A program made the position numbers and the translations under genes. A stretch of DNA of 64,000 nt from Lineus longissimus (lineage: Eukaryota > Nemertea > Pilidiophora > Heteronemertea > Lineidae), in contig NC_088314.1 of assembly GCF_910592395.1 (NCBI RefSeq), forward strand, positions 9,674,001 through 9,738,000, written 5' to 3'. The notes under the pieces are model-generated. The model worked only from the letters and a program-made list of their open reading frames with translations, searched no databases and was not told the origin of the DNA. Below, piece by piece: positions 2,966 to 44,808 of the stretch. Positions within the stretch are counted from its first letter, which is position 1, and every line of letters starts with the position of its first letter.

Positions 2966-3167
2966 TTGCACGGCTGTAACATGCGGTGTTTTTCGTTCTT
3001 GTGGCTCTTTGTCACCATGGACATCTTACATTATACTTTAGCCTGGGTCCTATTGGCCTTCTCAGGCATTTATGCTCTTTGTTTTGCATACTTACATGTA
3101 TGTCACATCAAAGAGTTTTCACCTCTATTTTATGCAAGGTTCTGGATTCCGCTCCCTCGTTTCAGGT

Positions 3168-26170: not shown

Positions 26171-26432
26171 AGAATATATGTATTGTGGTGGTAGGAATCT
26201 AGGTAATTCTAAGCTATTTTAACAAAAGCCCTTACAGGCCTTTTTGTCTCAAATTAGCTTAGAAACCCCTAAGAACCAGACACCACAATACATATATTCT
26301 ATCATTCATGAGATTCCCAGTGAAGCGTTGCAATGAAATGGTCAGTGAAATGGTGAGGGAATACTAGAGTTCAATGGGTTAATGTAATCATGACTTACTG
26401 TATTCCAACAGAAAGTACACGTCAATAGCTTT
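26171..26432 (+). repeat. Polinton left terminal inverted repeat
   Basis: Inverted match to 44547-44808. Its outer 130 bp (26171-26300) is itself an imperfect palindrome: the terminal 20 bp AGAATATATGTATTGTGGTG recur inverted at 26281-26300, with more pairing inside. Confidence 0.95.
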
Positions 26433-28433: not shown

Positions 28434-28443
28434 ATAAGTAATT

Positions 28444-30021: not shown

Positions 30022-30068
30022 GTGACCTTCTATCAAAACAATGTTTAAAAAATAATTATTATGTAAAT

Positions 30069-31298
30069 ATGAATAAATACATCTCATTAAAAGACTATTA
30101 TTCTAGTGAGTCGGACTTCGTCCTGAGAGCAGAGCTCGAGTGGAACAATGAGAATCTTAAAGGATACATTCGTCCTAGGGTTATGGATCGAGCAGAGCTC
30201 TCAGGACGAAGTCGGACTAGGACAAAGTCCCGAGAGCAAAGCTTGACTCGAGCAGAGCTCTCAGGACGAAGTCCGACTAGGACAAAGTCCCGAGAGCAAA
30301 GCTCGACTCGAGCAGAGCTCTCAGGACGAAGTCCGACTGAGACAATCAAAGTAGTCCTGCCAAGAATGAAAGAATATGACGTCAGTACCAACACTAATGC
30401 TCAATTCTGCCGTAATTGTAAAAGGTGGACCCTTTTTGAGTATCAAAAAAACTTGAATTCAGCAAGGTACGCAGCTAAAACTGTGAAGTATCAATTCTGC
30501 ACCAATTGCAATTCGACTACTTACGACGATGATTTTAAAACTCTTGAGATCAATATTGACAACAAGACACGTTACTTTGACAGTATTCTAAGGAAACTTG
30601 GATGGAGTCGGCTGTCCGAATCGGCAGTTAAGTATTTAAAGGACTTTGTGGAAGGGTATTTACAGTGCTACTTTTCAAGTCACAGTAAATGTCTTAGTAA
30701 GCAGAGATATGAAAGTACTCTTCAGTCAGCCCTAAAAATGGGTATTAACACTCTCCCCTCTAAGTTATGTAACCAAGGGTTACATGGTGAAGCCATGCTT
30801 TTTAAATTTCACTGTGGGGAATATGATTGGTTTCTTGCCATTGAATTTATTAACAGGGCAATTGGTAAACCGCAATTAACCGATGAGAATATCACTGACC
30901 TTAGACTAGTGTACTATGCTTTCCTTAGATTTCTGCATTACTGTGGTGTCAAGGTCACCATTAACTACAAGGTATTTTTACACCAAGCCTTTAAAACGCT
31001 GAAAATTGATTATGTAATATTTACACCTTTTTTAACCAACAAGGAGCGAGTAAATGATTTGGAGAGATTATGGTATGATTTCGCTCAAAGTATTTTCTTC
31101 CAGAATTACAAGGTTGAGAAGGAATATGACCAGGATATTGACAAGCAGTTTGACGTTTTACTGAGTGCCAGTGCAGGTCGAGACATTAACTGCATCAGTA
31201 ATATTAAGTTTACACCAGCCGGACTTCGTCCTGAGAGCATAGCTCGAGCCGGACTTCGTCCTGAGAGCATAGCTCGAGCTAGTGTTAAGATGCAATAA
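30069..31298 (+). CDS. Zinc-ribbon Polinton protein with in-frame repeat insertions (409 aa)
   Basis: A C-x2-C pair at residues 114-117 and another at 144-147 suggest a zinc ribbon, followed by a mostly helical 230-residue domain I do not recognise. The N terminus (residues 16-24 and 41-93) is built from double-hairpin repeat units: SGRSPTRTKSREQS repeats three times with a 20-residue (60-bp) period. The C terminus (about residues 388-406) is two 30-bp units read in another frame, GLRPESIARA twice. The native core is thus residues 95-385. It follows the preceding gene by 47 bp. Confidence 0.72.
   Translation: MNKYISLKDYYSSESDFVLRAELEWNNENLKGYIRPRVMDRAELSGRSRTRTKSREQSLTRAELSGRSPTRTKSREQSSTRAELSGRSPTETIKVVLPRMKEYDVSTNTNAQFCRNCKRWTLFEYQKNLNSARYAAKTVKYQFCTNCNSTTYDDDFKTLEINIDNKTRYFDSILRKLGWSRLSESAVKYLKDFVEGYLQCYFSSHSKCLSKQRYESTLQSALKMGINTLPSKLCNQGLHGEAMLFKFHCGEYDWFLAIEFINRAIGKPQLTDENITDLRLVYYAFLRFLHYCGVKVTINYKVFLHQAFKTLKIDYVIFTPFLTNKERVNDLERLWYDFAQSIFFQNYKVEKEYDQDIDKQFDVLLSASAGRDINCISNIKFTPAGLRPESIARAGLRPESIARASVKMQ
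30113..30140 (+). repeat. Double-hairpin unit in zinc-ribbon gene
   Basis: GGAC-TTC-GTCC followed by GAGC-AGA-GCTC; read as DFVLRAELE. Confidence 0.9.
30188..30340 (-). repeat. Double-hairpin array, 60-bp period, three units
   Basis: GAGC-AGA-GCTC and GGAC-GAA-GTCC alternate with GGAC-AAA-GTCC and GAGC-AAA-GCTC. Units start at 30189, 30249 and 30309, all in one open frame. Confidence 0.93.
31221..31279 (+). repeat. Double-hairpin pair, 30-bp period
   Basis: Two identical units GGAC-TTC-GTCC and GAGC-ATA-GCTC at the 3' end of the zinc-ribbon gene, read as GLRPESIARA. Confidence 0.93.
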
Positions 31299-31349
31299 AG
31301 TTGTGAAAACAGCATTTTGCACTTAACAGTCATTTTTCCATAATTTTAA

Positions 31350-32171
31350 ATGAATAATCAGCAAATGAATAGTCAGACATCTGCAGTGATTGAACAACAG
31401 ATGAAACAGATTGGTGTTATGAGTCCTGAGAGCTTAGCTCGAGTTGGGGCTTCTAACCAACAGAACACTGGTAGTTACCAACAAAACAGAACTAACTTTC
31501 AACAGAACTGCTCTACAAATCAACAAGTTTCAAACAAGCAGTTGAATAGTTCAAATTTTGTTAATCCTAGTCAAGGAATAGTTAATCCCAGTCAAGGAAT
31601 AGTCAATTCTAGTTGCCAACTAGGCTCAACTAGCAATCAACAAAATTTGAACTATTTGACTGATAGTGGCCTTAAAGCCAAACAAGACTTAGAGATTCTA
31701 GTTGCAACTGGTAAAAGCAAGGATTTCCTTAATAAACAAATAACTTTTAATGACTTAGATAATATGACTGAAAAAGAAATCTTAAAACACCATAGAATGT
31801 ATGAAACAAAGATGACTGCCAGACTTAATGATTCTTTGGGTAAGACAGTAATTAAAGCTTACACTAAATTATCAAGGTGGTTATTACCAATAGATGATGA
31901 AGATAATCTTTACCATGATCTTAGAAATGATTATTTGATAACTAACGAGTTGGATAAATGGCTTGGATGGTTGAGTTTGAGAATGGGTGCACTAACTGCA
32001 CTTGCCTCAACAACACTTATTACTTTAGGTCATTGTCATGAGGAATCATCTATGAATACATCGAGTATGACTGCATCAAATATGAATACACCAAATATGA
32101 CTGTCTCTGAATGTGACAAATCAATAGATGAAAGTCTAGATATCACAGGTAGTGATGATAAAGAAGACTAA
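31350..32171 (+). CDS. Gln/Asn-rich Polinton protein with conserved helical C terminus (273 aa)
   Basis: The start lies in TTTTAAATG. Residues 1-105 are Gln/Asn/Ser-rich and probably disordered, with a 21-bp tandem repeat (NPSQGIV) and one partial double-hairpin unit read as SPESLARV (residues 29-36). From residue 110 there is a helical domain with YTKLSRWLLPIDDEDNLYHD and a hydrophobic helix near LRMGALTALASTTLITL. I recall this C-terminal block in other animal Polintons; function unknown. The tail is Met/Thr/Ser-rich. Confidence 0.65.
   Translation: MNNQQMNSQTSAVIEQQMKQIGVMSPESLARVGASNQQNTGSYQQNRTNFQQNCSTNQQVSNKQLNSSNFVNPSQGIVNPSQGIVNSSCQLGSTSNQQNLNYLTDSGLKAKQDLEILVATGKSKDFLNKQITFNDLDNMTEKEILKHHRMYETKMTARLNDSLGKTVIKAYTKLSRWLLPIDDEDNLYHDLRNDYLITNELDKWLGWLSLRMGALTALASTTLITLGHCHEESSMNTSSMTASNMNTPNMTVSECDKSIDESLDITGSDDKED
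31421..31445 (+). repeat. Partial double-hairpin unit
   Basis: Only GAGC-TTA-GCTC keeps its stem; the first hairpin is reduced to GAGTCC. In frame in the Gln/Asn-rich gene. Confidence 0.75.
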
Positions 32172-32220
32172 ATTAACCTAGTTATGAGAACATAGTTCGA
32201 ATTAAATTCGGCCAAGATAA

Positions 32221-32727
32221 ATGGAACTTGAAACTGTAACTGATACTACTAAAGTTTCAGTGTCTAAGAAACCTCGATCAGAGAAACAATTAGCATGGTC
32301 TAGAGAACTGGGTAGAAGATCTAAGGAATTTAAGAGGATAAAAAAGGATAAGACGACATTTAAAGTACAGGACTCCTCACCAAACAACAGAGTTGTGGAA
32401 AAGGAGGAAGAAGAATTAGAGGAAGAAGAACCACAATCTCAAAATACTGATGTATCACTGCGTGAATCTAGTAGTAATACTTATGTCTATGTACTAGGTT
32501 TAGGTGCCGTTATTTTAGCAGCATTCATTATGTTTAAGAAACTTCCTAAAAAAGTAAGTAAAGAGCAGCGATCAGGCTTGAATCGAGCTATGCTCTCTGG
32601 ACAAAGTCCTAATCGAGCTATGCTCTCAGGACAAAGTCCGAATGAAGCAGTCATGAAGGGATCAATTAACCCTCTTGTTAAACCTGTAGTTAAAGAGAAG
32701 AAATGTACTATTCCTTTAATGGAATGA
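32221..32727 (+). CDS. Small single-membrane-span Polinton protein (168 aa)
   Basis: A basic N terminus (residues 12-48) and an acidic run EEEELEEEE (62-70) precede one transmembrane helix at residues 87-105 (TYVYVLGLGAVILAAFIMF). After a Lys-rich segment come two tandem 30-bp double-hairpin units read as RAMLSGQSPN twice (residues 122-141). The start lies in GATAAATG. Unknown function; could be a membrane or virion accessory protein. Confidence 0.65.
   Translation: MELETVTDTTKVSVSKKPRSEKQLAWSRELGRRSKEFKRIKKDKTTFKVQDSSPNNRVVEKEEEELEEEEPQSQNTDVSLRESSSNTYVYVLGLGAVILAAFIMFKKLPKKVSKEQRSGLNRAMLSGQSPNRAMLSGQSPNEAVMKGSINPLVKPVVKEKKCTIPLME
32583..32640 (-). repeat. Double-hairpin pair, 30-bp period
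   Basis: Two units GAGC-TAT-GCTC then GGAC-AAA-GTCC, in frame in the single-span membrane protein. Confidence 0.93.
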
Positions 32728-32739
32728 TCTCATCAGGTG

Positions 32740-32830
32740 GTCCGACTTCGTCTTGAGAGCTCTGCTCGAGTCGAACTTTGTTCTCTGGACCTTGTCTCAG
32801 TCAGACTTCGTCTTGAGAGCAGAGCTCGAT
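32740..32830 (+). repeat. Double-hairpin array between and into convergent genes
   Basis: Contains GAGC-TCT-GCTC, GAAC-TTT-GTTC, GGAC-CTT-GTCT and GAGC-AGA-GCTC with a 60-bp period. It fills the convergent gap and supplies the C terminus of the penton-like gene. Confidence 0.9.
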
Positions 32831-33751
32831 TCTTAACTCTAAAGAAACCTCTGTTCCTCTGAAATTAACTAGCTTACCATTCTCATCAGTGATTTCGAAT
32901 TTTATGTGATTAGTACACTTATTTATCGTTTTCTTACAATTCGGTTCGTATCGCTGCATTTTTATTTGGTCACCATCTTCTACAGGTATGATGCAGAAAA
33001 TGTTAGATGGTTTATTGTTGTAGAGGGTCTTAGCTTTGTCAACCAAATTAGCTTGCAGGAATAGATATTTCCTGTAAAAGTTGAGTGGTCTTGTGGAGTA
33101 GTATTTTCCTTTCTTGGTGAATTTAGTTTGCTTAAAGCCAAACCACTCATTCACCACTGTGAGCTGTTTTTCTATCACCTCTCTTATGGTTTTGCTTATT
33201 TGAAAACCTTCTGTGTTTCTCTCAATCTTGATTTTTTCATTTTTATCTAACTTGTCTACTTTCAGAGGGTACTCTTTATCCTCTGTAAGTTCAAGGGTTA
33301 TGTAATTATTGTTATCACAGTAAATTTTCACATGGCTTATTCCAATTTCTTTTATGTATTTTTGCCATACCTCACAAAACTCACTTAAACTAAAATGTCG
33401 AGAGTATGGAAATGTGTATTGAGTAATGGTGTCTTTAGTTGTGGTAGAATCATTTTCCAAATGCCGTTCGCAAATTTTCATGACTTCCTTTTCAAGTGTA
33501 TCTGTTTCAAGTCCAGGAGCAAATAATGTCCTACACCATAATTGTTTATCTAAGGGCTCATGTTTTGTAATTCTGGTTATTTCGACTAGAAATGAGAAAA
33601 TCCTTACTCCCTCTGGTAGAAAATCACCTGTCCACCATGAATTGTAAAAGGTTATCGATTTCAAAGTAATGGATTTTATGTCTAATTGGTCTGTTAAGTA
33701 GTACTCAAATTTGGCTTCATTACATTCTTGTTCATTGATTATGAAGTCCAT
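32801..33751 (-). CDS. Penton-like (single jelly-roll) capsid protein, second copy type (316 aa)
   Basis: The closing block HIKFEITDENGKLVNFRGTE is the hallmark strand pattern at the end of Polinton and adintovirus penton-like proteins, also seen in the protein at 42037-42804. The N-terminal two thirds are different and longer, so this could be a vertex or fibre component. The last ~9 residues (RIELCSQDEV) and the stop are supplied by a double-hairpin repeat unit. It is divergent from polymerase B, whose ATG is 57 bp away; the start is of the AAATAGAAATG type. Confidence 0.65.
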   Translation of the reverse strand: MDFIINEQECNEAKFEYYLTDQLDIKSITLKSITFYNSWWTGDFLPEGVRIFSFLVEITRITKHEPLDKQLWCRTLFAPGLETDTLEKEVMKICERHLENDSTTTKDTITQYTFPYSRHFSLSEFCEVWQKYIKEIGISHVKIYCDNNNYITLELTEDKEYPLKVDKLDKNEKIKIERNTEGFQISKTIREVIEKQLTVVNEWFGFKQTKFTKKGKYYSTRPLNFYRKYLFLQANLVDKAKTLYNNKPSNIFCIIPVEDGDQIKMQRYEPNCKKTINKCTNHIKFEITDENGKLVNFRGTEVSLELRIELCSQDEV

Positions 33752-33807
33752 TTCTATTTAATTCAAGAGATTTATTGAATTTAATAAATTTTAATCTAAT
33801 AAATAGA

Positions 33808-36800
33808 ATGACTGATAAGAATCAGAAAATACTTTGCACTACATGTGACAAGTACATATCCTACAATAATATGGCTATTCACAGGAGAACCAAAGGTCAC
33901 TTAAGTAAATTAAATCCGGATTATGTCCCTATTGCTCAACCCCGAGCCCAATCACTGATCCCTAAAACTATGGATAAGAAACTTGCATTTGAGGAAAATG
34001 AGCTAGATGGCATAAAGAAAGTGAGTGGAATAGAAATAGTAAAACAATTTGGCAAGCCTGTAGTCACCATTAGTTTGAAGATTGACAGAGAAGCTAAACA
34101 AGTGTATGAATACAGAGATAAATTAGAGGAGGTATTATTTCAACTCAATGATTACCATCACAAAATTAGCATATCAGTATTTGCTCAGTTTGATCGTCAG
34201 GGTGAAAGTGTAACACACCCCATACAGTCTCCAATGGAAAGCATAATTTCAAGGAACCAGGCAATTTATGCCATAACCAACCAGTTAAACTACATTAAGA
34301 CACAGATTGAGGAAAGGTACTTTCAAGGTTCTGGACTTACTTTAAATAAAATAGAGTCTTGTAACATGACCATCTGTTCTTACAAGAGGTGTAAAGGTGG
34401 TCATTGCACTAAATTACCATTTAAAACAAAAGCAGTAATAAATGTGGAATCAAATGACAATAAATGTTTTCTCTGGTCTTTATTGGCCGCTAAATATCTG
34501 AAAGAAAATCCAGAGACGGACTTTGTCCTGAGAGCAGAGCTCGAGAGTACATTCAATATCACTACCGATATGCTAGAAATGACTTCGTCACGTGAACAGA
34601 GTTCGAAAACTACTGATATCAAAATCAAATCATTTCCTGTATGTATTCAAAAGGATATCCCTAAGATAGAGAGTGATAATAATCTCAAAATTAATGTGTT
34701 CAAGTTAGAGAACGAATCGGCTAAGAGCACCTGTGAGGCAAAACTAGAACCTCTCTACCTGTCCAAGAATTATGATGATGATGATGTCATCGATCTGTTG
34801 TATTTCAAGGACCATTTCATGTACATAAGAGACATCAATCTTTTCTTCAGGACACTAGCTCATAGAGTGTATCTTTGCAGGAGATGCATGAATTACTTTT
34901 ACAGGAAGTCAACACTAGATAAACATAAAAAGAAATGTGGAGAACACGATTACTGTAAGATTACTTTGCCTCCACCTAACAGTAAATGGTCACAAATTAA
35001 ATTTGAAAAACACTCATTCAAAAATAGAGTTCCGTTTGTGATCTATGCTGATTTCGAAGCGATAAGCGAACCTTGTTCTTCTGCCGAAGGCAACATACCA
35101 GTAGTATCAGTAGAGCCACCTATGATGAAAGAACCGAGTTCAAAGAAACTTTTTAAACAAAATGCATCAGCTGTTGGTGTTTATGTTCACTCAGACTACA
35201 CACACCTTTACAGTAGCCAGTATGTGTCTCGCAGGGGTGCTGATGTTGTAGATGTGTTCTGTAATTGGTTAATCAGGATGGAAGAACAATTCTCTAATTT
35301 ATTGAACTGTAACTTTCCTCTAACAATGACAGATGAAGACTCGAGCTCTGCTCTCAGGACGAAGTCCGACTGGCATAAATATCAATTAGAGACACATTGT
35401 TACTATTGTAATCAACCTTTGGGATATGACAAGGTCAAGGATCATGATCACTACTGTGGTAGATATCGAGGTGCTGCTCACAACTCGTGTAATTTGAATG
35501 AAAAGAAAGCTATGTTTGTTCCAGTGTTTTTTCACAATCTCAGTAATTACGATTCTCACTTATTTATTAAAGAATTAATGAATAAGCTACCGAAGTACAA
35601 GAAACTGAAAATACTTGCCAAAACATCAGAGGAATACATTTCATTTCAGTTCGGTTGTTTCAGGTTTTTGGACTCGTACAGATTCCTGCAGTCCAGTTTA
35701 GACAACATAACCAAATCAATGTTGGATGATGATTTTAAAATTACCAGACAGCTGTTCCCAAATACCACTGACTTTAAGCTATTGAGGAAGAAGGGTTCAG
35801 TACCTTACTCTTTTTACACATCACATGAAAGCTACAATGTTACTTACCTAGAAAAGTCTATGTTTTTTGACGAATTGAAAAATGAAATGGCACCTGATTC
35901 TGCCTATGATGAGGCTAAGGTAATATGGGATCATTTCAAGATCAGGAATCACGGTGAGTTCATTGACCTCTACCTCAAAACTGATGTGATCCTTTTAGCT
36001 GATTTATTTGAGAAATTCAGGGATGTCAATTTGAACTACTTTCAGATAGATCCATGTCACTGTTACTCGGCACCAGGCCTAACCTGGCAAGCTGGTTTGA
36101 AGTACACAGGAATAAACCTAGAACTACTGACTGATACCAACATCTTACTTACTTTTGAGAAAGCAATACGAGGTGGAATTTCGGGTGTTATGGGAACAAG
36201 ACATGTCAAGGCAGATGAACACCACAAACTACTCTACGTAGACGCAAATAATCTCTACGGCTGGTCCATGATGGAACCTCAACCCTATGGTAGTTTTGAA
36301 ATGATAGATATTGATCCACTCGAGCTATGCTCTCAGGACAAAGCTCGACTAGGACAAAGTCCAGAGAACAAGGTTCGACTTAACATGAATGTTATCAGTA
36401 AAGAGCAGATTATGGCAATTCCAAGTGATAGTGAAGTAGGCTACTTCTTAGAGGTTGATTTGGAGTATCCAGGAAATATTAAATTTAAGTCAAGGAACTT
36501 TCCATTCTGTCCCGAATCTCTCTTTATTGAAGATGATGAATTAAGTCCTTACCAGAGAGAGTTACTGGGCGATGATAAAAGATCAAATGTAGAGAAACTA
36601 ATACTAACACAAAAGGATAAAACTAATTACATAGTGCATTACAGAATGCTACAATTTTACCTCAAGCACGGAATGGTACTTAAGAGGGTTCATTCAGTGA
36701 TAAGCTTTAAACAATCAAAGTGGTTAGCACCATACATTGATTTTAACACTAAAAGACGTATGGACTCTAAGACTGATTTTGAGAAAGATTACTTTAAATT

Positions 36801-37629
36801 AATGAATAATGCGTTCTATGGAAAAACTTGTGAGAATGTAAGGAACAGGGTTGAAATTGAATTTGTATCGGACGGGGAGAGAGCCAGGAATGTAATGGCC
36901 AATCCCAGGTTTTCATCGATATGCGTATTTGACGAACATAATGCTGCTATTAGCATGAGGAAAACATCAATGAAATTCAACAAACCAATCTACATAGGAG
37001 CTTCAGTACTTGAATTGTCTAAATTATTAATGTATGAATTCTATTATGAAGTTCTTCAACCGTACTTTGGTGAGAAAAATATTGAACTGCTGTATCTAGA
37101 TACAGATTCCTTTGTACTTAACATTAATACTGATGACTTAACTAAAGACTTAAAGGAGTTGAGACACTATTTTGACTTCAGTAATTATCCAAAAGATCAT
37201 ACACTCTATGACACCAGTAAGAAGAAGGTACCAGGCTACTTTAAGGATGAGCTAGGAGGAGTAGAGATGACTGAATTCATTGCCCTGAGAAGTAAGATGT
37301 ACGCTTACAGGACCAAGACTATGTCTGGAGAGCAAGGATCGACAAAAGATTACGATTCTAAGAAATTGAAGGGTATTGCCAAGAATGTAGTAAGGAGAAA
37401 TATCTCATTTGATGACTATGTTGATTGTCTTGAAAAGAGTAGGTCATTTTACCACAAGATGAGACACTTAAGATCAGATAAACACCAAATCTATTTGGAA
37501 GAAGTTGACAAAAAAAGCCTCAGTCCTTTTGATGACAAGAGGTTCATACTTGAAGATGGAATAAGCACCTTACCATTTGGAATGTATTATGAAGGCTACA
37601 TAGATTACAGCGATTCAAACTTCGCTTGA
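33808..37629 (+). CDS. pPolB: Protein-primed DNA polymerase B (Polinton pPolB, 1273 aa)
   Basis: This is the replicative polymerase of the element. In order: a C2H2 finger (CTTCDKYISYNNMAIH, residues ~9-25); a Cys-rich region (CRRCMNYFYRKSTLDKHKKKC); 3'-5' exonuclease ExoI YADFEAI (~residue 413); an HNH/endonuclease VII-like insert (CYYCNQPL, DHDHYCGRYRGAAHNSC, ~530-560); ExoII NLSNYDSHLF; ExoIII LKTDVILLAD; polymerase motif A YVDANNLYGW (~811); motif B NNAFYGKTCENVRN (~1000); and motif C YLDTDS (~1096). Four double-hairpin insertions are read through in frame (residues ~237-247, 259-267, 511-521, 837-858). I start at ATG 33808; the frame extends upstream only to a TTG at 33775. Complete and apparently functional. 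Confidence 0.95.
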   Translation: MTDKNQKILCTTCDKYISYNNMAIHRRTKGHLSKLNPDYVPIAQPRAQSLIPKTMDKKLAFEENELDGIKKVSGIEIVKQFGKPVVTISLKIDREAKQVYEYRDKLEEVLFQLNDYHHKISISVFAQFDRQGESVTHPIQSPMESIISRNQAIYAITNQLNYIKTQIEERYFQGSGLTLNKIESCNMTICSYKRCKGGHCTKLPFKTKAVINVESNDNKCFLWSLLAAKYLKENPETDFVLRAELESTFNITTDMLEMTSSREQSSKTTDIKIKSFPVCIQKDIPKIESDNNLKINVFKLENESAKSTCEAKLEPLYLSKNYDDDDVIDLLYFKDHFMYIRDINLFFRTLAHRVYLCRRCMNYFYRKSTLDKHKKKCGEHDYCKITLPPPNSKWSQIKFEKHSFKNRVPFVIYADFEAISEPCSSAEGNIPVVSVEPPMMKEPSSKKLFKQNASAVGVYVHSDYTHLYSSQYVSRRGADVVDVFCNWLIRMEEQFSNLLNCNFPLTMTDEDSSSALRTKSDWHKYQLETHCYYCNQPLGYDKVKDHDHYCGRYRGAAHNSCNLNEKKAMFVPVFFHNLSNYDSHLFIKELMNKLPKYKKLKILAKTSEEYISFQFGCFRFLDSYRFLQSSLDNITKSMLDDDFKITRQLFPNTTDFKLLRKKGSVPYSFYTSHESYNVTYLEKSMFFDELKNEMAPDSAYDEAKVIWDHFKIRNHGEFIDLYLKTDVILLADLFEKFRDVNLNYFQIDPCHCYSAPGLTWQAGLKYTGINLELLTDTNILLTFEKAIRGGISGVMGTRHVKADEHHKLLYVDANNLYGWSMMEPQPYGSFEMIDIDPLELCSQDKARLGQSPENKVRLNMNVISKEQIMAIPSDSEVGYFLEVDLEYPGNIKFKSRNFPFCPESLFIEDDELSPYQRELLGDDKRSNVEKLILTQKDKTNYIVHYRMLQFYLKHGMVLKRVHSVISFKQSKWLAPYIDFNTKRRMDSKTDFEKDYFKLMNNAFYGKTCENVRNRVEIEFVSDGERARNVMANPRFSSICVFDEHNAAISMRKTSMKFNKPIYIGASVLELSKLLMYEFYYEVLQPYFGEKNIELLYLDTDSFVLNINTDDLTKDLKELRHYFDFSNYPKDHTLYDTSKKKVPGYFKDELGGVEMTEFIALRSKMYAYRTKTMSGEQGSTKDYDSKKLKGIAKNVVRRNISFDDYVDCLEKSRSFYHKMRHLRSDKHQIYLEEVDKKSLSPFDDKRFILEDGISTLPFGMYYEGYIDYSDSNFA
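34519..34606 (+). repeat. Two double-hairpin units inside polymerase B
   Basis: 34519-34546 has GGAC-TTT-GTCC and GAGC-AGA-GCTC. 34581-34606 has GAC-TTC-GTC and GAAC-AGA-GTTC, a covarying stem. Both are in frame. Confidence 0.88.
35341..35371 (-). repeat. Double-hairpin unit inside polymerase B
   Basis: GAGC-TCT-GCTC then GGAC-GAA-GTCC, read as SSALRTKSD just before the HNH-like insert. Confidence 0.9.
36319..36380 (-). repeat. Double-hairpin units between polymerase motifs A and B
   Basis: GAGC-TAT-GCTC, GGAC-AAA-GCTC (stem partly broken), GGAC-AAA-GTCC and GAAC-AAG-GTTC. About 21 codons, in frame. Confidence 0.9.
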
Positions 37630-37630
37630 G

Positions 37631-37720
37631 TCGAGCTTTGCTCTCTGGACCTTGTCCTAGTCCGACTTCGTCTTGAGAGCATAGCTCGATTAGGACACGT
37701 CCAGAGAACAAAGTTCGATT
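37631..37720. repeat. Double-hairpin array after polymerase B stop
   Basis: GAGC-TTT-GCTC, GGAC-CTT-GTCC, GAGC-ATA-GCTC, GGAC-AC-GTCC and GAAC-AAA-GTTC in the convergent intergenic gap. A lone GGAC-GTA-GTCC hairpin follows at 37825-37835. Confidence 0.9.
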
Positions 37721-37849
37721 AAACTAATGAATAGGGTGGTGCTGATGGTAGTGTTACTTGGTGAAATTCATCCCTAACACCGAAGTCATGATAATAGTGA
37801 TAGTGATACACCACATTAGGATTAGGACGTAGTCCGGGTCCTGTTTGAT

Positions 37850-38509
37850 TTACTGAACTTTTAGTTTTTCTAGCATCTCTGTCTGTGCTAGTTTTTTTCC
37901 TTCTTCTAAAAAAGTCTTCTTTAAAGACTCTACATCAACAGCTGAACTTGCCTCCCTTTGTTTTTTCCTAATGGCATTTTTCATCGAAATGTATTTCTCC
38001 TTCTCCTTGAGAATCAAAGTAAACTCATCTGTAGATATGTGAGAATCGGTTAAGGCTTTACTAACCAAATCATTGATTGTGTTCAGTTTTGAAATTGCCA
38101 ACATTCTGATATTCTCATGCTTTTCAATTTTCCTTAGAATATTCTTTTTCTCCCAGCCTAAGGCTGATGAAATAATGGCACTACCTATTGTTACGCCACC
38201 CAAAGCTAAGCCTATCGGTGCCGTGATGACACCAGCTAGAGCGGAAACACCAACAGAGCCAGCTGCTACGCTAGTTAAATTAAGGAAGTGGCTAATGCCA
38301 GTAATTACGCTAAATGCTTTTTTGTACTTTGAAAATATCTTTCTTCTAAATTCAATCTCGCTTTCTAAGAAACTCTTAACCTCACATATTTGTTGTAGTC
38401 TGAAAGCCTGAGGGTTACTTTCTGTATGCTTTTCAGACCTTTCATAGTTCAATTGACTTTCAGAATTTAAATTACTTAAATCTGGATAAACATTATTGTC
38501 TCCATCCAT
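37850..38509 (-). CDS. Conserved Polinton membrane-associated protein (219 aa)
   Basis: The centre (residues ~68-115) is Gly/Ala/Val-rich and hydrophobic (SVAAGSVGVSALAGVITAPI), flanked by charged helices that could form coiled coils. A conserved block follows: LAISKLNTINDLVSKAL and STDEFTLILKEKEKY. I recall this pattern in many animal Polintons, without a known function. The start lies in ATTAAATG, and the next gene upstream on the same strand ends 5 bp away. Insertion into a lipid layer or membrane disruption is an inference. Confidence 0.65.
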   Translation of the reverse strand: MDGDNNVYPDLSNLNSESQLNYERSEKHTESNPQAFRLQQICEVKSFLESEIEFRRKIFSKYKKAFSVITGISHFLNLTSVAAGSVGVSALAGVITAPIGLALGGVTIGSAIISSALGWEKKNILRKIEKHENIRMLAISKLNTINDLVSKALTDSHISTDEFTLILKEKEKYISMKNAIRKKQREASSAVDVESLKKTFLEEGKKLAQTEMLEKLKVQ

Positions 38510-38513
38510 TTAA

Positions 38514-38783
38514 TTAGTGGGAATAACTAGAATCAGTTGTTCTGTCATTTCTAGTGTTTAGTGTTGATCCTGCAGACACTACAGGTTTTTGTTGTACATT
38601 AAATTTTAAAGGTTTTTTTGACCCAACAGGTTTTTCTGACCCAGCAGGCACAGCAGGTTTTAAAGGTTTTTCGGGACCAGGCTCCAACTTTGACTCTACT
38701 TCTGCCTCTAATTCTCTATGAAATCGTTCTAATCTTTCTTTCCAATTACGTGGTCGTTTTGTGTAACCCCAAGTTCTATTCAT
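38514..38783 (-). CDS. Small basic Pro/Lys-rich Polinton protein (89 aa)
   Basis: A basic start (NRTWGYTKRPRNWKERLERF), then a Lys/Pro/Ala low-complexity stretch with repeated GSEKP and KKPLKF pieces. The ATG is in ATTAAATG and both neighbours are tightly packed (4 and 19 bp). A DNA-binding or core-protein role is possible but not shown. Confidence 0.55.
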   Translation of the reverse strand: MNRTWGYTKRPRNWKERLERFHRELEAEVESKLEPGPEKPLKPAVPAGSEKPVGSKKPLKFNVQQKPVVSAGSTLNTRNDRTTDSSYSH

Positions 38784-38802
38784 TTAATTAAGTAAAATAA
38801 AA

Positions 38803-39744
38803 TCAATTCACTGCAAAGAGTAAATTTCTTTCAAGTCCATTATTCAACTTAATCATCTCGTTTATGATTTCTGTCTGACTACATATGTTAATGTTCTGGT
38901 TCATTCTCATGTTATTATTTAAATTCGATAATCTATCAAGCAGAATCATATTTTCATCACGAAGATAATCCCCGAAATGCTGTGATATCACTATTTTCCA
39001 ATTTGGTATTACATCCTGGTCTCGAAAGACAAACCAGTTTTCACTTCTCATTTTTACCATGAAATCCATTGACCTATCCAATTGATCCTTAAATAGTGTG
39101 TAGTCTACTTTAGCACTCTTCTGTCTGTTTTGTGTTTTAGACATTGGTCTAATGTTAAACCAAGCAAAGCACAGTTCAGGTTTATCTTTGAATTCCTTGA
39201 TTGGTAAGACATGATCCAACTCTTCTTCTACTATTCGAACTCTGTTCTCGGGACTTTGTCCTATTGGAGATAGACTCCTCTGGTACTCTAACCACTGTGA
39301 GAAGAAACTGTCTGTACATCCTAGATTGAATGATGAATTACCGGTACACTCTCCGTTAGAAATGCGGTTTAGACCAACTCTAATTTTGTGTCTGTCTCTA
39401 TTACCATTTTGGTCAAGGTAATCCTTTTTGTAATATGAATTAAAACATGATCTACAGTTACCTCTATTTCCGTCTTTACCAAATTCACCATCACTTAGTA
39501 ATTTATTTTCATAACATTTATTACATCCCTTGATTTTACTTGAACCACATTCTTTACAGTAATCAAGTAGTTTATTACGCCTGTTCTTTTCAAAATTAAT
39601 TTCAGGTTTTGTTACATCGCACTTAACACATTTAAATGTAGGCCCTGAAACTACTGGTTGATACTGATAAACAGGATACTGATTAACAGGATACTGATAA
39701 ACATTGACAGTACCATAGTTAACGTTAAATATCTGTCCTTCCAT
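38803..39744 (-). CDS. HNH endonuclease-like zinc-ribbon protein (313 aa)
   Basis: The N-terminal 100 residues hold four C-x2-C pairs (39/42, 63/66, 74/77, 97/100), consistent with two zinc ribbons, after a Tyr/Pro/Val-rich repeat (NQYPVYQYQP). An HNH-like core follows: ELDHVLPI (Asp177-His178), then FAWFNIRPMSKTQN (Asn197, Asn206). This pattern fits HNH nucleases of the viral or homing type. A double-hairpin unit is read in frame between the ribbons and the HNH (residues 160-170, PIGQSPENRVR). The start is AGAAATG. It might cut DNA during replication or help the element home; both are inferences. Confidence 0.7.
   Translation of the reverse strand: MEGQIFNVNYGTVNVYQYPVNQYPVYQYQPVVSGPTFKCVKCDVTKPEINFEKNRRNKLLDYCKECGSSKIKGCNKCYENKLLSDGEFGKDGNRGNCRSCFNSYYKKDYLDQNGNRDRHKIRVGLNRISNGECTGNSSFNLGCTDSFFSQWLEYQRSLSPIGQSPENRVRIVEEELDHVLPIKEFKDKPELCFAWFNIRPMSKTQNRQKSAKVDYTLFKDQLDRSMDFMVKMRSENWFVFRDQDVIPNWKIVISQHFGDYLRDENMILLDRLSNLNNNMRMNQNINICSQTEIINEMIKLNNGLERNLLFAVN
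39234..39262 (+). repeat. Double-hairpin unit inside HNH gene
   Basis: GAAC-TCT-GTTC followed by GGAC-TTT-GTCC; in frame on the minus strand. Confidence 0.88.
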
Positions 39745-39779
39745 TTCTAGCTTGATTTAAAGGATAAAAAGATTTTAAA

Positions 39780-40934
39780 TTAAGGTTTTAAGCTTTTTAT
39801 TCCTGAAATTGGTAACCATTCATTGAACTTATCACTGTAACCCTTCCACTTCACTAATCCGTATTTCTTGCCTTTACTGGTCTTGTACCTTAGGATTTTC
39901 TCGATCTTGTACTCTAGCTGGTCAGGATTAGGAACATAGCTCAATTCCTCTTCATAGAAATATCCTTGAATTTCTTCTTTGTGGTAATCCTCAAGCTGGT
40001 AGACGATAGGGTGAGTAAAGATGATCTGTTTGATTTGGAACACCTCCTCAGTGTAGTTGGGCATGTAACCTTTACCGAAAATGGACTTGTACTTTGAAAT
40101 TCTTACACTGTCACCTACTTTGTACTTTGGATCACCAAATGTCTCTTTGAGGTGAAGACCGTAAAGATTGTACCACACTGTTCCTTCGTTTTCCATCTTT
40201 CTGGCGTCTACAGGTTTCATACCTATTGATGAGTGAAATGTGTTATTGTAGCCGCTGACCAGGTCATCCAGAACGTCAATCCACTTGTCAGTCTCCTTAG
40301 CGGTGAAATAACGCCACATTTTTTCTTTAAGGGTTCTATTGAATCTCTCTACTACTGCTGCCTTCTTATCAGATTTTGTGGAGAACCATTCTATGTCATT
40401 TTCTGTTAAGAGTTCCTTGAAGTGTTTGTTGTAAAATTCTTTACCGTCATCAAACTGGATTTTCGTTGGTTTTGCTTCCTCAAATATCACTTTAAATGCA
40501 TCTCTGATTTCTTCTCCCCTCTTACTCTTAACTGCTAGAGCCCAAGAAAAACGACTAAATAGATCTATGACTGTTAAAATGAATCTGTTGCCTTTATTTT
40601 GTTTCTCGAATTTTTGCATGTCAACCAGATCTGCTTGCCACTGTTGATCGATGTACGATACCATTGTCTTCCTGAAGGTGAATTTCTTAATGGCCGGTTT
40701 GTGTAGTTGGTGAGTTGGTAGTGTTTCTAGAAATTCTTTCACTTCTTTTTGTTTAATAAGTTTTCCTGAGCGGTACTTTGTCCCTAACAACGAAGTTGTG
40801 CTCTGCTCTCGTGACGAAGTCATATCTTCCTTGACCTGTTTCCAGATTTTACTCAAAGAACTGTAAGCCACGGGACTCTCAGGGCTGTAGTACAAATCCC
40901 TTAGATACTGCTGTGTGTCATCCTTTACATTCAT
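39780..40934 (-). CDS. INT: Retroviral-type integrase with chromodomain (384 aa)
   Basis: The catalytic core has Asp102 (WQADLVDM), Asp162 (FDDGKEF) and Glu196 (VVERFNRTLK), with 33 residues between the last two, as I count it. Asp replaces the more usual Arg or Asn after the second catalytic Asp. A C-terminal chromodomain covers about residues 335-380 (YKIEKILRYKTSKGKKYGLV, then WKGYSDKFNEWLP), which could target chromatin. The HHCC zinc finger is absent. Residues 39-46 (TSSREQST) come from a double-hairpin repeat. It is divergent from the ATPase gene; both ATGs lie within the palindrome CATTTAAATG at 40932-40941. Confidence 0.95.
   Translation of the reverse strand: MNVKDDTQQYLRDLYYSPESPVAYSSLSKIWKQVKEDMTSSREQSTTSLLGTKYRSGKLIKQKEVKEFLETLPTHQLHKPAIKKFTFRKTMVSYIDQQWQADLVDMQKFEKQNKGNRFILTVIDLFSRFSWALAVKSKRGEEIRDAFKVIFEEAKPTKIQFDDGKEFYNKHFKELLTENDIEWFSTKSDKKAAVVERFNRTLKEKMWRYFTAKETDKWIDVLDDLVSGYNNTFHSSIGMKPVDARKMENEGTVWYNLYGLHLKETFGDPKYKVGDSVRISKYKSIFGKGYMPNYTEEVFQIKQIIFTHPIVYQLEDYHKEEIQGYFYEEELSYVPNPDQLEYKIEKILRYKTSKGKKYGLVKWKGYSDKFNEWLPISGIKSLKP
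40773..40823. repeat. Degenerate double-hairpin units inside integrase
   Basis: Contains ACTTTGTCCC, AACGAAGTT, GTGCTCTGCTC and GACGAAGTC; stems are shortened. Read in frame as part of TSSREQST. Confidence 0.65.
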
Positions 40935-40941
40935 TTAAATG
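40932..40941. promoter_or_regulatory. Shared palindromic start CATTTAAATG of INT and ATPase
   Basis: The 10-bp palindrome holds the minus-strand ATG of the integrase (40932-40934) and the plus-strand ATG of the ATPase (40939-40941), with TTAA between them. Any promoter must lie in the opposite coding sequence or in these bases, like late-promoter motifs overlapping the start codon in some large DNA viruses. Confidence 0.6.
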
Positions 40942-41559
40942 AGTGAAGTATTTATTTACGAGCCACACAATATGTTAATTTCTGGTGTTACCAATTGTGG
41001 TAAGACATATTTTGCCCTTGACCTCTTAGAAAAGGAGTATCGGCACAAGTTCCAGAACATAGTCATTTTCTGTCCAACATATTTCAACAATAAGACATAT
41101 GAAAGGAAATGGATTTACCAAGACAAGAACGTCTACATAGTTAATCCCGAAGCTGTGGCCAGTAATTTGGACCTTGTGCTTCAGTTTGCTACTCTGACCT
41201 TCGCTGGTTCTAACACATTATTCCTCATTGATGACTGTGCTAATTTGAGAGACACAAAAAAGAAGGTGTCCGAGTTATGTAATCTTGCCTTTTCCGGCAG
41301 GCACTACAATCTCACTGTTTGGTTACTAGTTCAGAAGTACAATTCAGTTGTCAAGGACTACAGAGAGAACATAAGAATTTTAGTATTATTTTTTAATAAG
41401 GATGAATCAGCCATGAAAGATGCCTTAGAAGAAAACAGTGTTATTCCTAAGGAGAAAAGACAGTACTACATAGAAGAACTTAAGATGAAAAAAGGATCAA
41501 AACTGATCATTAGACTACAACATCCATTTGGATTTACTCTTTCACATCAAAAATCTTAG
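40939..41559 (+). CDS. ATP: A32/FtsK-HerA-like genome packaging ATPase (206 aa)
   Basis: Walker A is GVTNCGKT (residues 16-23) and Walker B TLFLIDDC (93-100), followed by a sensor-like block near LAFSGRHYNLTVWLLVQ. Size and motifs match the ATPase that pumps DNA into capsids in Polintons, virophages and related viruses. It is the only plus-strand gene in the right half and ends with its stop overlapping the convergent gene at 41556. Confidence 0.93.
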   Translation: MSEVFIYEPHNMLISGVTNCGKTYFALDLLEKEYRHKFQNIVIFCPTYFNNKTYERKWIYQDKNVYIVNPEAVASNLDLVLQFATLTFAGSNTLFLIDDCANLRDTKKKVSELCNLAFSGRHYNLTVWLLVQKYNSVVKDYRENIRILVLFFNKDESAMKDALEENSVIPKEKRQYYIEELKMKKGSKLIIRLQHPFGFTLSHQKS

Positions 41560-42014
41560 TCCCGCTTCTCATCAGTTGTCTTAGTCTTTCTAACCCTAGT
41601 AAAATAATAAATTATTAACCCTAAACCACTAAGTCCTAGGATAATCCATAGGTACTCGTATTTCTTCATTTCATCACTAGGTTGGTAGTAATCACTTAAT
41701 TGTGGTCGCTGAGGTAGTACAATAGTTCTTTCTGGATGTAAATGATTGTAAACAGTAAGTGCTGAATCAGTATTGTTAAGATCAATAGAAGCGTCTCTTT
41801 CTCTCTTTAATTCAAGATTAACGAAGTCAATGGTACTTTTCCTATGCTCCTCCCATTCGGTTGAAGCTCTTTGTAATTGCTCCTGAGCCAAATCATGTCT
41901 TTTCACTTCAGTCTCATAGCCATTCTTGTCTAGTTTTTTAAAAAGGTAACCGGATCCAGTGAATGCTAATCCATTGATTATTGCAGATCCAAATAACATG
42001 CCAATGCCAGCCAT
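41556..42014 (-). CDS. Conserved two-span membrane protein of Polintons (152 aa)
   Basis: An N-terminal hydrophobic helix (GIGMLFGSAIINGLAFTGSG, residues 3-22), a charged helical middle (EEHRKSTIDFVNLELKRERD), the motif QLSDYYQPSDEMKKYE, and a second membrane helix (LWIILGLSGLGLIIYYF, ~122-138) with a basic tail. I recall very similar proteins beside capsid genes in cnidarian and other animal Polintons. Role unknown, presumably virion membrane or assembly. Start in ATTAAATG. Confidence 0.75.
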   Translation of the reverse strand: MAGIGMLFGSAIINGLAFTGSGYLFKKLDKNGYETEVKRHDLAQEQLQRASTEWEEHRKSTIDFVNLELKRERDASIDLNNTDSALTVYNHLHPERTIVLPQRPQLSDYYQPSDEMKKYEYLWIILGLSGLGLIIYYFTRVRKTKTTDEKRD

Positions 42015-42036
42015 TTAATTCCAATGAATTTTAATT

Positions 42037-42804
42037 TCAATGATGTGTCCCTGAGAGCATAGCTCGAGTTGATACCAATTGGTACTGTACATTATGACCA
42101 TTAAGATCGATGATGTCACCTTTTTCATCAGTTAAGCGAATATTCAGCTTATTGAATCTTGGTTTACAGGGAATTGCTATTGGTTTCTCAAATGTGTATG
42201 CTATTAAATCTCCAAAATTAGCTTCCTTTATTGGTCTTGTGGTTAGCACATCAGATGCTTCACCATTACTTAATACACTATTAGATTCGATTATGTCACA
42301 GTGAAAAACAAAATGGTTAATTGGTCTAAAATTGATGGGTTTCTCGCTTACAACATCATCCTTACTTTTATTGTCTAAAGGATAAGGCCATTCTGATTTC
42401 ATGCCAAATAATTCATTACTTTTACCAAGAAAATAGATCTGATAATGCGCCTCATTTTTTCTCTTTAGGAAGTGTAAGATGGCCTTACCTGTTGGTTCTT
42501 CAAGGTCAAATCTGACAGCACCTCTACTCATACTATTTTCTTTCAACTTATCCGCAAATACTTTTGAAAAGCTCTGTAGGTCATAGAGACCATCTGGTAG
42601 CGTAATCTCTGCCACATCAAACCCCTTAACTTTGATTCGGTTATTCTCCCTGGCTGCACTTATGTTGTAGAATGTACAAGGTATTACTGCAAAAGTTAAA
42701 GTGATGCTACATGCATCTTGAATTTCAGTCTTGAGATTGACTGTTAAATCACTTGAACTCTGATCTGGATAGTCACTTGAATCTATGTTCATTACAGTAA
42801 CCAT
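42037..42804 (-). CDS. PX: Minor capsid (penton-like) protein (255 aa)
   Basis: This matches the Polinton minor capsid or penton protein in size and in its C-terminal jelly-roll strands (FNKLNIRLTDEKGDIIDLNG, then HNVQYQL). It lies between the membrane protein and the major capsid gene, the usual neighbourhood. The last ~10 residues (STRAMLSGTHH) derive from a double-hairpin repeat unit at 42047-42069, which also sets the stop. Start in GTAAATG. Confidence 0.85.
   Translation of the reverse strand: MVTVMNIDSSDYPDQSSSDLTVNLKTEIQDACSITLTFAVIPCTFYNISAARENNRIKVKGFDVAEITLPDGLYDLQSFSKVFADKLKENSMSRGAVRFDLEEPTGKAILHFLKRKNEAHYQIYFLGKSNELFGMKSEWPYPLDNKSKDDVVSEKPINFRPINHFVFHCDIIESNSVLSNGEASDVLTTRPIKEANFGDLIAYTFEKPIAIPCKPRFNKLNIRLTDEKGDIIDLNGHNVQYQLVSTRAMLSGTHH
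42047..42069 (+). repeat. Partial double-hairpin unit at PX 3' end
   Basis: GAGC-ATA-GCTC complete, first hairpin truncated to GTCCC. Forms the last codons of the minor capsid gene. Confidence 0.8.
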
Positions 42805-42861
42805 TTACTTAAGCAAATTTTCGTTTTCAAATTTACCTTTTATCAAATAAGTAAATTATTC

Positions 42862-43098
42862 TTACTTCATAATATTTCTGGGTAGGATTCCTTGATCGTA
42901 AAGGTACTCTAATGTTCCATTACTAATAGCTACAGTTCCACCCAGTTTAAGAATTTCCTCTAGGTTGGCCTGACTTGGGGGACCAATATTGATTCTCAAG
43001 AACCTTTTCAGTAACATAGAGTAACCAATTGTTGTTGATGCCAACAGTAAACTTTGATACAGTGTATTTATGATATCTTTCTTTCCTGGTGTATCCAT
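42862..43098 (-). CDS. Small conserved Polinton protein (78 aa)
   Basis: A hydrophobic N-terminal helix (LYQSLLLASTTIGYSMLL) precedes a short conserved end (TLEYLYDQGILPRNIMK). It sits between the two main capsid genes, so it may be an assembly or minor virion protein. I recall similar small ORFs in this position in other Polintons. Start in ATTAAATG. Confidence 0.6.
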   Translation of the reverse strand: MDTPGKKDIINTLYQSLLLASTTIGYSMLLKRFLRINIGPPSQANLEEILKLGGTVAISNGTLEYLYDQGILPRNIMK

Positions 43099-43162
43099 TT
43101 AATTACTTAGAAAATCACTAGTAAAACTCATTTATCTAGTATTCAGTATTTAATTTAGTGTT

Positions 43163-43226
43163 GTACGAACTTTGTTTCAGTGTTGGAGCGAACTTTGTTC
43201 TTGCAGCACCTCAGTGTTGGAGTGAA
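43163..43226. repeat. Diverged hairpin pair between MCP and small gene
   Basis: GAAC-TTT-GTTT and GAAC-TTT-GTTC within a TGTTGGAGCGAACTTTGTTC-like repeat of about 35 bp. Confidence 0.65.
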
Positions 43227-44467
43227 GCAATCTGAGAATTCTGGATGTTTACCTGGGCGTCAGAAACCACGAATATGTGCATTTTGTATGGTCCCTTTCC
43301 AGATTTCTTTGTAATAGATAATTGAATACCATCTTTTGTGTTCTGGAGCTTCTTTCCTGATCCGTGAAGACGATTATCCTCAGAAGTTCTCAGGTCCAAC
43401 CATAAACCATAGTGATTAGAATCACCATAGTATTTTTCCATGGTCATGTTACAGTCATGAGTTTTCTTCAAATCTTCAGACATAAAATGTTTCTTGATCT
43501 CCTCCCATTGATCCATCATTCTCATTCCTTCTGGGAACACCTGATTGGCAACACCCTCTATTGTGATCTGCACTTTACTTATGTTAGGGTTTTCAAACTT
43601 CTCTGAATCTCTAGCTCCATCTACATAGTCAGACACAAATAGTAATAATAATCCTTTAATAGACATTCTTGGAAAGTTGATGTTCTCATTAATTAGTGTT
43701 TCATTAGCAGTAACATTGACTGTCTTAAAATGGTCTACCCAATCATAAAATATTGAGAATCCAGAGTTGTACTTGTTACTCAATTGACTAGCAATCATTT
43801 TGTTGGCTACGGTATCATATTCAAAACAAATATTCTCTAGTTTGTAGCCCATGCTAGCTGTGGTTGTGGTGACTATGATTTCCTCCTTTGGTGCTAAAGT
43901 TATTTCAATGATAACATCTTCTTGAATTGGAAACTTGTAAAATGGAGCATGATGATGGAATAGTTCAAAATCTAATGGTATTTTGTACTTCTTGTCAAAC
44001 ACTTTCTTTAAAGTCTTTTCATTAGCTGTTTCTCCAGTGACATCAGCTTCAGCGACTCCTGATCTTAATTCTCTAAGATTTTTTGACTGAATACCCTGAA
44101 AAACTCTATCATTTCTTTCTTCTTCTGTAAACCACAGATCTTTAAATGTAGAATAATGACTGTATTCGTCAAGGTCAAATATCTGCTCTGTTCCCCACTT
44201 AACCACCATCTTTGAGATTAGGTTTCTACCAAGATTATTTACAACACTATTTTTAGAATCACCAGAAATGGTTACATCAGCAGACAGATAAAGAGATTTA
44301 GGTACAAAGAATGTATTCTCTCGCAATGCAGGTATTCTAACATACAGTGTTTCTTTGGGGTTAGCAGATGATGGGTTATGAGTAATGATATGATGCTGCC
44401 TCTCAGCTTTCAAACCAAGTGGAATCTTATGTGCCCTTTCGGTATTTAATAAATATCCTGTTGCCAT
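43211..44467 (-). CDS. MCP: Major capsid protein, double jelly roll (418 aa)
   Basis: The length and conserved blocks identify the Polinton PY protein, the double jelly-roll major capsid protein: near the N terminus AHKIPLGLKAERQHHI and RIPALRENTFFVPKSLYL, and in the second half RMSIKGLLLLFVSDY, then SEKFENPNISKVQITIEG and GMRMMDQWEEIKKHFM. It would form the icosahedral shell with the penton-like proteins. It is the last gene before the right terminal repeat, with a start of the AAATAGAAAATG type. Confidence 0.92.
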   Translation of the reverse strand: MATGYLLNTERAHKIPLGLKAERQHHIITHNPSSANPKETLYVRIPALRENTFFVPKSLYLSADVTISGDSKNSVVNNLGRNLISKMVVKWGTEQIFDLDEYSHYSTFKDLWFTEEERNDRVFQGIQSKNLRELRSGVAEADVTGETANEKTLKKVFDKKYKIPLDFELFHHHAPFYKFPIQEDVIIEITLAPKEEIIVTTTTASMGYKLENICFEYDTVANKMIASQLSNKYNSGFSIFYDWVDHFKTVNVTANETLINENINFPRMSIKGLLLLFVSDYVDGARDSEKFENPNISKVQITIEGVANQVFPEGMRMMDQWEEIKKHFMSEDLKKTHDCNMTMEKYYGDSNHYGLWLDLRTSEDNRLHGSGKKLQNTKDGIQLSITKKSGKGPYKMHIFVVSDAQVNIQNSQIASLQH

Positions 44468-44546
44468 TTTCTATTTATTTACTAGTAAAATTATGTACAT
44501 GCAGTGAACAGTGCCAACATCATATATCAGGTAAAATGCACGGAAA

Positions 44547-44808
44547 AAAGCTATTGACGTGTACTTTCTGTTGGAATACAGTAAGTCATGATTACATTAA
44601 CCCATTGAACTCTAGTATTCCCTCACCATTTCACTGACCATTTCATTGCAACGCTTCACTGGGAATCTCATGAATGATAGAATATATGTATTGTGGTGTC
44701 TGGTTCTTAGGGGTTTCTAAGCTAATTTGAGACAAAAAGGCCTGTAAGGGCTTTTGTTAAAATAGCTTAGAATTACCTAGATTCCTACCACCACAATACA
44801 TATATTCT
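44547..44808 (-). repeat. Polinton right terminal inverted repeat
   Basis: Exact complement of 26171-26432, with the outer 130 bp (44679-44808) again forming a near-palindrome. Confidence 0.95.

Follow-up and report, generated by a model that had tools for sequence, protein, structure and literature searches.

A family of 27-bp double-hairpin units with filled and empty sites in Polintons of the nemertean Lineus longissimus

Miniature inverted-repeat transposable elements (MITEs) are short and non-coding, duplicate their target and occur in many copies. In the available parts of the literature on fungal mitochondrial double-hairpin elements (DHE) and sponge mitochondrial repetitive hairpin-forming elements (RHE), both are described as adjacent short hairpins with kept stems and variable loops, scattered and probably mobile (PMC2800124, PMC10085805); the Allomyces DHE are reported there without flanking duplications (PMC2800124). 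Placozoan mitochondria contain small inverted repeats of the form GGVBCC-N3-GGVBCC, single hairpins with a 3-nt loop and a short stem that varies as a complementary pair, which proliferated in a lineage-specific manner; the portion of the text at hand does not mention a target duplication (PMC7813641). According to the excerpts available, Rickettsia palindromic elements (RPE) are bacterial, ~150 bp long and inserted in frame into many unrelated genes (PMC10969869), and the mitochondrial genes of Magnusiomyces contain many short inserts that are bypassed in translation (PMC5009743). For the mobile hairpin elements of organelles various mechanisms had been proposed by 2009 and none settled, as the accessible part of one source states, and in sponges the question was hampered by the lack of sequences from closely related species (PMC2800124). 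Here we describe a 27-bp double-hairpin unit that is repeated in a Polinton of Lineus longissimus. The window, i.e. the whole stretch of DNA analysed, comprises 64,000 nucleotides of contig NC_088314.1 (positions 9,674,001 to 9,738,000, assembly GCF_910592395.1), and all positions given below refer to it.

With DHE and RHE the unit shares all the features named, but it lies in a Polinton on multi-megabase contigs instead of mitochondrial DNA, mostly inside genes and with 3-bp duplications. It resembles the placozoan repeats in its short stems with complementary variation, 3-nt loops and lineage-specific proliferation, and differs from them in having two hairpins, a non-mitochondrial location and a target duplication. 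Like the RPE it is palindromic and inserted in frame into unrelated genes, but it measures only 27 bp and belongs to a virus-like element of a 391-Mb genome (30 contigs). Although it is short, non-coding, multi-copy and associated with a target duplication like a MITE, it is far shorter, its terminal repeats are not clear beyond ~5 imperfect bases, and no autonomous partner is known (no search for one was made). Many short inserts within genes are also found in Magnusiomyces, but the unit keeps the frame and is open, so that no bypass is needed. A literature search, mostly of papers outside subscription, found no report of such units in Polintons, and in the parts available none of the texts on the nearest kinds concerns a Polinton (PMC2800124, PMC10085805, PMC10969869, PMC5009743, PMC7813641, PMC2670323). 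The nearest kinds are the mitochondrial hairpin elements and the rickettsial palindromic elements, and we file the unit as a new variety of mobile hairpin element without assigning it to any named family.

A sequence-only reading of this DNA had described about 16 loci with two mini-hairpins some 3 nt apart. GGACN3GTCC occurs 15 times in the window, GAGCN3GCTC 18 times and GAACN3GTTC 9 times, compared with 0.51, 0.26 and 0.90 expected from shuffles, and all these matches fall in 30113-43200. Perfect double hairpins (4-3-4, 3-nt spacer, 4-3-4) were found 17 times in the Polinton and not elsewhere in the window; spacers of 2, 4 or 6 nt gave none anywhere in the window, and each remaining spacer from 0 to 8 nt gave 2 to 9 in total, inside or outside the Polinton. 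A covariance model was trained on 27 units in a gapless alignment, all in one orientation. It identified 28 units in the Polinton (E 5e-10 to 3e-4), 27 of which match by construction, while the unit at 37315-37341 was absent from the training set; no unit was found in the window outside the Polinton (best E 0.56). The hairpin counts far above shuffles and the 28 model matches thus confirm a real double-hairpin family, restricted within the window to the Polinton as had been claimed. The estimate of about 16 loci needs correction, as the 28 units stand at fewer places and several form arrays, and the right end of the range was set too far out: the lone GAACTTTGTTC hairpin at 43190..43200 (+) is below threshold (E 0.33).

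The unit consists of one base, stem A, xGA, stem B and a G, with 4 bp and a 3-nt loop in both stems. Stem A is mostly GGAC/GTCC, stem B is GAGC/GCTC or GAAC/GTTC, and the two termini are imperfect CGRRC. Units occur on either strand, and the alignment separates two subfamilies, one starting with C and having loop TTY, the other starting with A and having loop AAR. The loops had been described as varying freely; once the units are placed in one orientation, TTC, TTT and AAA prevail in loop A and ATA, AAA and AGA in loop B, so that the variation is smaller, TTC/GAA and AGA/TCT being partly one loop seen from opposite strands. The architecture of two hairpins about 3 nt apart was correctly recognised, but the repeated unit is longer, 27 bp, and often lies between identical triplets. 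The 3-bp duplication, the in-frame step of 30 bp and the reading of the unit in six frames had been overlooked.

Identical triplets flank 16 of the 28 window units, where ~0.56 would be expected by chance (0.020 per pair). When both unit ends were slid by up to 4 bases, triplet identity peaked at the 27-bp boundary (16; next best 10). For further comparison we used 20 other Polinton copies, 9.9 kb each and 94.8-97.9% identical to that of the window. These 21 sequences contain 314 perfect double hairpins (one of which is plainly no unit), 206 of them with equal triplets. Counted as distinct combinations of flank and core, 43 of 90 have equal triplets, namely AGT 13, ATT 12, ACT 12, AGC 3, AGA 2 and AAT 1. 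Seven of the 35 cores with equal flanks were found with at least two different triplets, and since identical cores carry different triplets, the triplet derives from the target. The insertion step is 30 bp, the 27-bp unit plus a 3-bp duplication that is mostly AGT, ACT or ATT.

Alignment of the 20 copies revealed units present and absent at orthologous sites in 30-bp steps, both states of the comparison that had been proposed as a check. At the unit 30112..30138 (+, AGT/AGT), 6 copies have the same length, 6 are shorter by 30 bp with a clean empty AGT, and 8 are shorter by 33 bp with diverged flanks. Conversely, the window has an empty ACT at 31629..31631 (+) where a full unit is present in 5 of the 20 copies (L009, L010, L013, L026, L028) and a truncated one in 3 (L019, L023, L027), and an empty ACTACT at 32245..32250 (+) where 13 of 20 copies are longer by 30 bp and 6 by 60 bp; L024 is empty like the window. 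Inside the polymerase gene, the unit at 35342..35368 (-), directly upstream of a weak endonuclease-VII-like domain match, is lacking in 15 of 18 covered copies, and the two inverted units at ACT in 36321..36377 are fewer in many copies (among 18 covered, the length fits no unit in 4 copies, a single unit in 7 and two units in 6; one further copy has other inserts). The unit at 34579..34605 (+, stem A TGAC/GTCA) is missing from L017 and L019, a unit with stem GTAC/GTAC and triplet ATT is present at 34621 in L013 and L022, and the integrase has two more insertion sites, one in L056 and one in L057, where the overlap is exactly 3 bp (GAT).

Two diverged Polintons served as outgroups. One (L058) has 74-81% DNA identity over ~3.6 of its 8.0 kb and 1 unit in the stretch compared; the other (L059) has 70-86% identity across most of the initial 6.8 kb, with 2 units according to the covariance model, 3 including a degenerate one. 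As the site at 35342 is empty in L059 and that at 36321 in L058, both units are gains. The units at 37315..37341 (+, in the polymerase gene; filled in L058) and 39236..39262 (-, AAT/AAT, in the endonuclease-VII-like gene; common to L053/L059 and L054) are old.

Several sites hold more than one unit. Five units with alternating strands (30189-, 30219+, 30249-, 30279+, 30309-) and junction triplet ACT make up the array 30189..30335; three units (32742+, 32772-, 32802+) occupy 32742..32828 and three more 37632..37717, directly downstream of the polymerase gene; two tandem units at 32584..32640 (-), with triplet ATT in unit orientation (AAT on +), vary in copy number. The second unit at a site is often inverted and from the other subfamily, and such pairs are therefore not plain tandem duplications. 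Chimeric-looking units at 34212 and the 30-bp changes within arrays point to slippage as well. At window position 34189, 11 of 20 copies contain a 30-bp insertion whose first stem differs (CGACC-TTT-GGTCG) and whose second is degenerate. Insertion alleles unlike the unit, of 42 bp (L012, L016) and 39 bp (L018, L020, L025), are found in other copies at window positions 30351 and 32770, and L028 has a 4468-bp insertion at the position matching window 32138.

Open reading frames (ORFs) contain 22 of the 28 units, spread over six frame/orientation classes, and the peptides read from them differ widely (e.g. SDFVLRAELE, RAELSGRSP, GLRPESIAR, LELCSQDKAR, SSSALRTKSD, RTKSREQSS). Because of the six classes and the dissimilar peptides, a shared protein motif can be ruled out and the unit is inherited as DNA. 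Five units are read in the frame class where TGA in the spacer would terminate translation, and none of them has TGA. The Polinton-type family B DNA polymerase gene (33775..37629, +; PF03175, E 2.9e-19) has 7 units within it. We scored 36 of the 1394 candidate polymerase matches in the genome; 29 of the 36 have open-frame lengths that, as read from the table by eye, lie on two ladders of 10-codon steps, and internal stops occur in 8 of the 36.

A statistical test without stem covariation had been named as a possible refutation of the family. The 24 distinct units of the window give a covariation score of 0.236 compared with 0.121 in shuffles (0/500 as high), and in 14 cells both sides are changed (0/500 shuffles reach this). 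Four stem pairs show a change on both sides, which 11 of 500 shuffles also reach, and further pair types are no more numerous than in shuffles (7 vs 8.0). Across the 21 sequences, the pair that varies in stem B is G-C in 282 cases, A-T in 58, G-T in 3, A-C in 1 and other in 4; four pairs of cores differ solely at this pair, with neither intermediate seen for 3 and both for 1. Pairing is less strict at the outer position of stem A (Watson-Crick in 269 of 323), and all 3 core pairs that differ solely there have at least one intermediate. The claimed covariation thus holds strictly for stem B (GAGC/GCTC vs GAAC/GTTC) and less so for the outer stem A pair. Because orthologous copies are included in the counts, independent events are few. 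A dimeric protein site tolerating G or A on each side was rejected, as it predicts that mixed combinations are common, and G-T or A-C was seen in only 4 of 348 cases; stem B is better accounted for by pairing or by one arm being repaired from the other.

The 4 units folded gave ordinary energies (z -1.4 to +0.4 for DNA, -0.7 to +1.0 for RNA), and on this basis an unusual folding stability was rejected. The sequence-only reading had favoured selection for, or copying based on, the hairpin over the primary sequence. An insertion or copying mechanism does act on the unit, but primary sequence is conserved as well as the stems, and the folding energy does not set the hairpins apart.

Units present throughout the host genome as an ordinary satellite had been the other possible refutation. 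A relaxed unit pattern has 1668+1657 = 3325 matches in the host genome and 0 in the reversed control. The first 100 of these 3325 places, all on one contig (C1), form 10 clusters and show no such satellite; all 10 clusters match Polinton DNA where examined, two by a polymerase match, one as an aligned copy and seven via short stretches (three of these being single places). Confinement to Polintons was upheld to this extent, and the diverged L058 and L059 carry few units. Each of the 20 copies holds 9 to 21 perfect double hairpins in its 9.9 kb. The strict pattern had no match in viral contigs and none in bacterial and archaeal contigs (257 Gb); the relaxed pattern gave a single match in one viral contig and 23 single matches in the bacterial and archaeal ones, about chance level (~30 by our own estimate).

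Exact presence or absence of 27+3 bp at orthologous sites, targets that preferentially begin with A, two or more units at one triplet and insertion in both orientations are observed; the mechanism of movement is what we infer. Our favoured explanation, to which we assign a probability of roughly 0.6, takes the unit for a minimal, non-coding element of 27 bp that resembles a transposon, so far found only in Polintons, with a target that starts with A and a 3-bp duplication, moved by some enzyme in trans. Such an enzyme would recognise paired or palindromic DNA, and the staggered cut would be made in Polinton DNA outside the chromosome, during replication or recombination. Arrays may grow and shrink through re-insertion at the duplicated triplet plus 30-bp slippage. 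T4 endonuclease VII is known to cut branched DNA, and by family resemblance one candidate would be the Polinton's own endonuclease VII-like protein, a putative junction nuclease (38803..39744, -; phrog_1035, E 8.6e-9; 1 unit within). The integrase is disfavoured as the mover, since the duplication flanking the Polinton itself measures 6 bp instead of 3. As 30 is divisible by 3 and most unit frames are open, insertions in genes are tolerable.

Several observations weigh against this explanation. The tandem pair with triplet AGC at 31220..31276 (+) has constant length in 20/20 copies and the unit in the polymerase gene at 34517..34543 (+, AGA/AGA) in 19/19 covered copies. Although an outgroup has the unit at 37315, 10 of the 17 copies covered there have a clean empty site, so units must also be lost, precisely excised or swapped from copy to copy. 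In a tree of the window and 18 copies (19 rows; sites 36321, 34212 and 32247 scored with three states), seven sites require 2 to 9 changes each, which could reflect recombination between copies. A perfect triplet match is lacking at 12 of the 28 window units, and the duplication is imperfect at three sites that have an empty allele (34212, 34579, 37315). The hairpins are weak as DNA (-1.3 to -4.1 kcal/mol), and we know of no transposon as short as 27 bp. A more specific form of the explanation is only tentative: a 27-bp hyperparasite living only inside a virus-like transposon, moved by Polinton-encoded machinery, for example by the endonuclease VII-like protein working on hairpins in the strand under replication, while the 30-bp step would keep the carrier genes in frame. 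It would be the shortest transposon-like element.

The main rival, which we regard as rather unlikely, is replicative template switching, in which a stalled Polinton strand pairs via ~3 bases with the flank of a distant unit, copies the unit and returns; the triplet would be microhomology and no transposase would be needed. The dominance of few triplets (AGT 13, ATT 12 and ACT 12 of the 43 distinct combinations), the two orientations, the nested arrays and the encoded Polinton-type polymerase, whose protein-primed replication exposes single strands, are all in line with it. However, 7 of 35 cores carry different triplets, so the triplet need not accompany the donor, and the step at single sites is almost always 30 bp.

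A selected cis-acting signal of the Polinton, for replication, packaging or transcription, with drifting copy number would account for the nearly always complementary variable pair of stem B, for the perfect double hairpins in every one of the 20 copies and for the invariant sites 31220 and 34517. We judge it improbable, as the positions and numbers of units vary among nearly identical copies, the two diverged Polintons hold 1 and 2-3 units in the stretches compared, and units lie inside genes on either strand. Mobility via a small structured RNA has been proposed for the Allomyces DHE in the part of the text available (PMC2800124); here 3 of the 4 units folded as RNA form both hairpins, and stem B covaries, but G-T, the usual intermediate of RNA stems, is rare (3/348), units occur on both strands, the 3-bp duplication suggests a staggered DNA cut, and no Rfam family reached the gathering threshold in 29900-43500, which makes this route very improbable. 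Ordinary tandem-repeat slippage with recombination between Polinton copies would explain the 30-bp steps of the arrays, to which it applies, and the apparently chimeric units at 34212, but as a full account it is barely credible, being contradicted by scattered lone units that have clean empty alleles, by sites that are empty in the outgroups and by neighbouring units in inverted orientation.

The remaining units are single and partly degenerate: a partial unit with stem B alone intact at 31415..31441 (+, E 2.7e-5), an intergenic unit with stem A TAAC/GTTA at 32173..32199 (+), a degenerate unit with stem A TGCC/GGCA at 35067..35093 (-), the unit in the integrase gene at 40797..40823 (-, stem A TGAC/GTCA, one mismatch in stem B) and a degenerate unit with intact stem B at 42040..42066 (+), at the 3' end of ORF 42037-42804. 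The carrier spans 26171-44808 and shows the features of a Polinton: terminal inverted repeats of 262 nt (26171..26432, +, and 44547..44808, -) that are 100% complementary, a direct 6-bp duplication GATGCA on both flanks, the family B polymerase, an integrase (rve plus chromodomain; 39780..40934, -; 1 unit) and an A32-like packaging ATPase (40939..41559, +; PF04665, E 6.8e-15; 0 units). A capsid-like ORF at 43211..44467 (-) has a weak Capsid_N match under the curated cut-off (E 0.002) and no unit. In viral contigs no relatives of the polymerase, the integrase or one conserved polymerase piece were confirmed, and the polymerase had no match among solved structures.

Other structures were noted in the window. 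Inside the Polinton there is a 34-bp inverted copy, 97% complementary (28916-28949 and 42815-42848), and just within its left end an imperfect palindrome (26652-26811, arms of 66 nt, 76% complementary). Near the Polinton, a MITE-like element at 50202-51540 has inverted ends of many AAAAC-N3-GTTTT-type hairpins with variable 3-nt loops, a separate loop-variable hairpin array. Adjoining ORFs at 3072-7005 match reverse transcriptase and, below the cut-off, a phage-integrase-type recombinase; we take them, as a suggestion, to be a DIRS-like retrotransposon. Tandem arrays lie at 54059-54911 (period 61 bp, 13.9 copies, 93% matches) and 23334-24288 (period 145 bp, 6.6 copies).

As one genome provides many near-identical Polinton copies with filled and empty sites, duplications, chimeric units and outgroups, the movement of so short a piece of DNA becomes directly testable. 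If the favoured explanation is true, a virus-like element has been colonised by a parasite sitting inside its core genes, and the unit would be among the shortest mobile pieces of DNA known.

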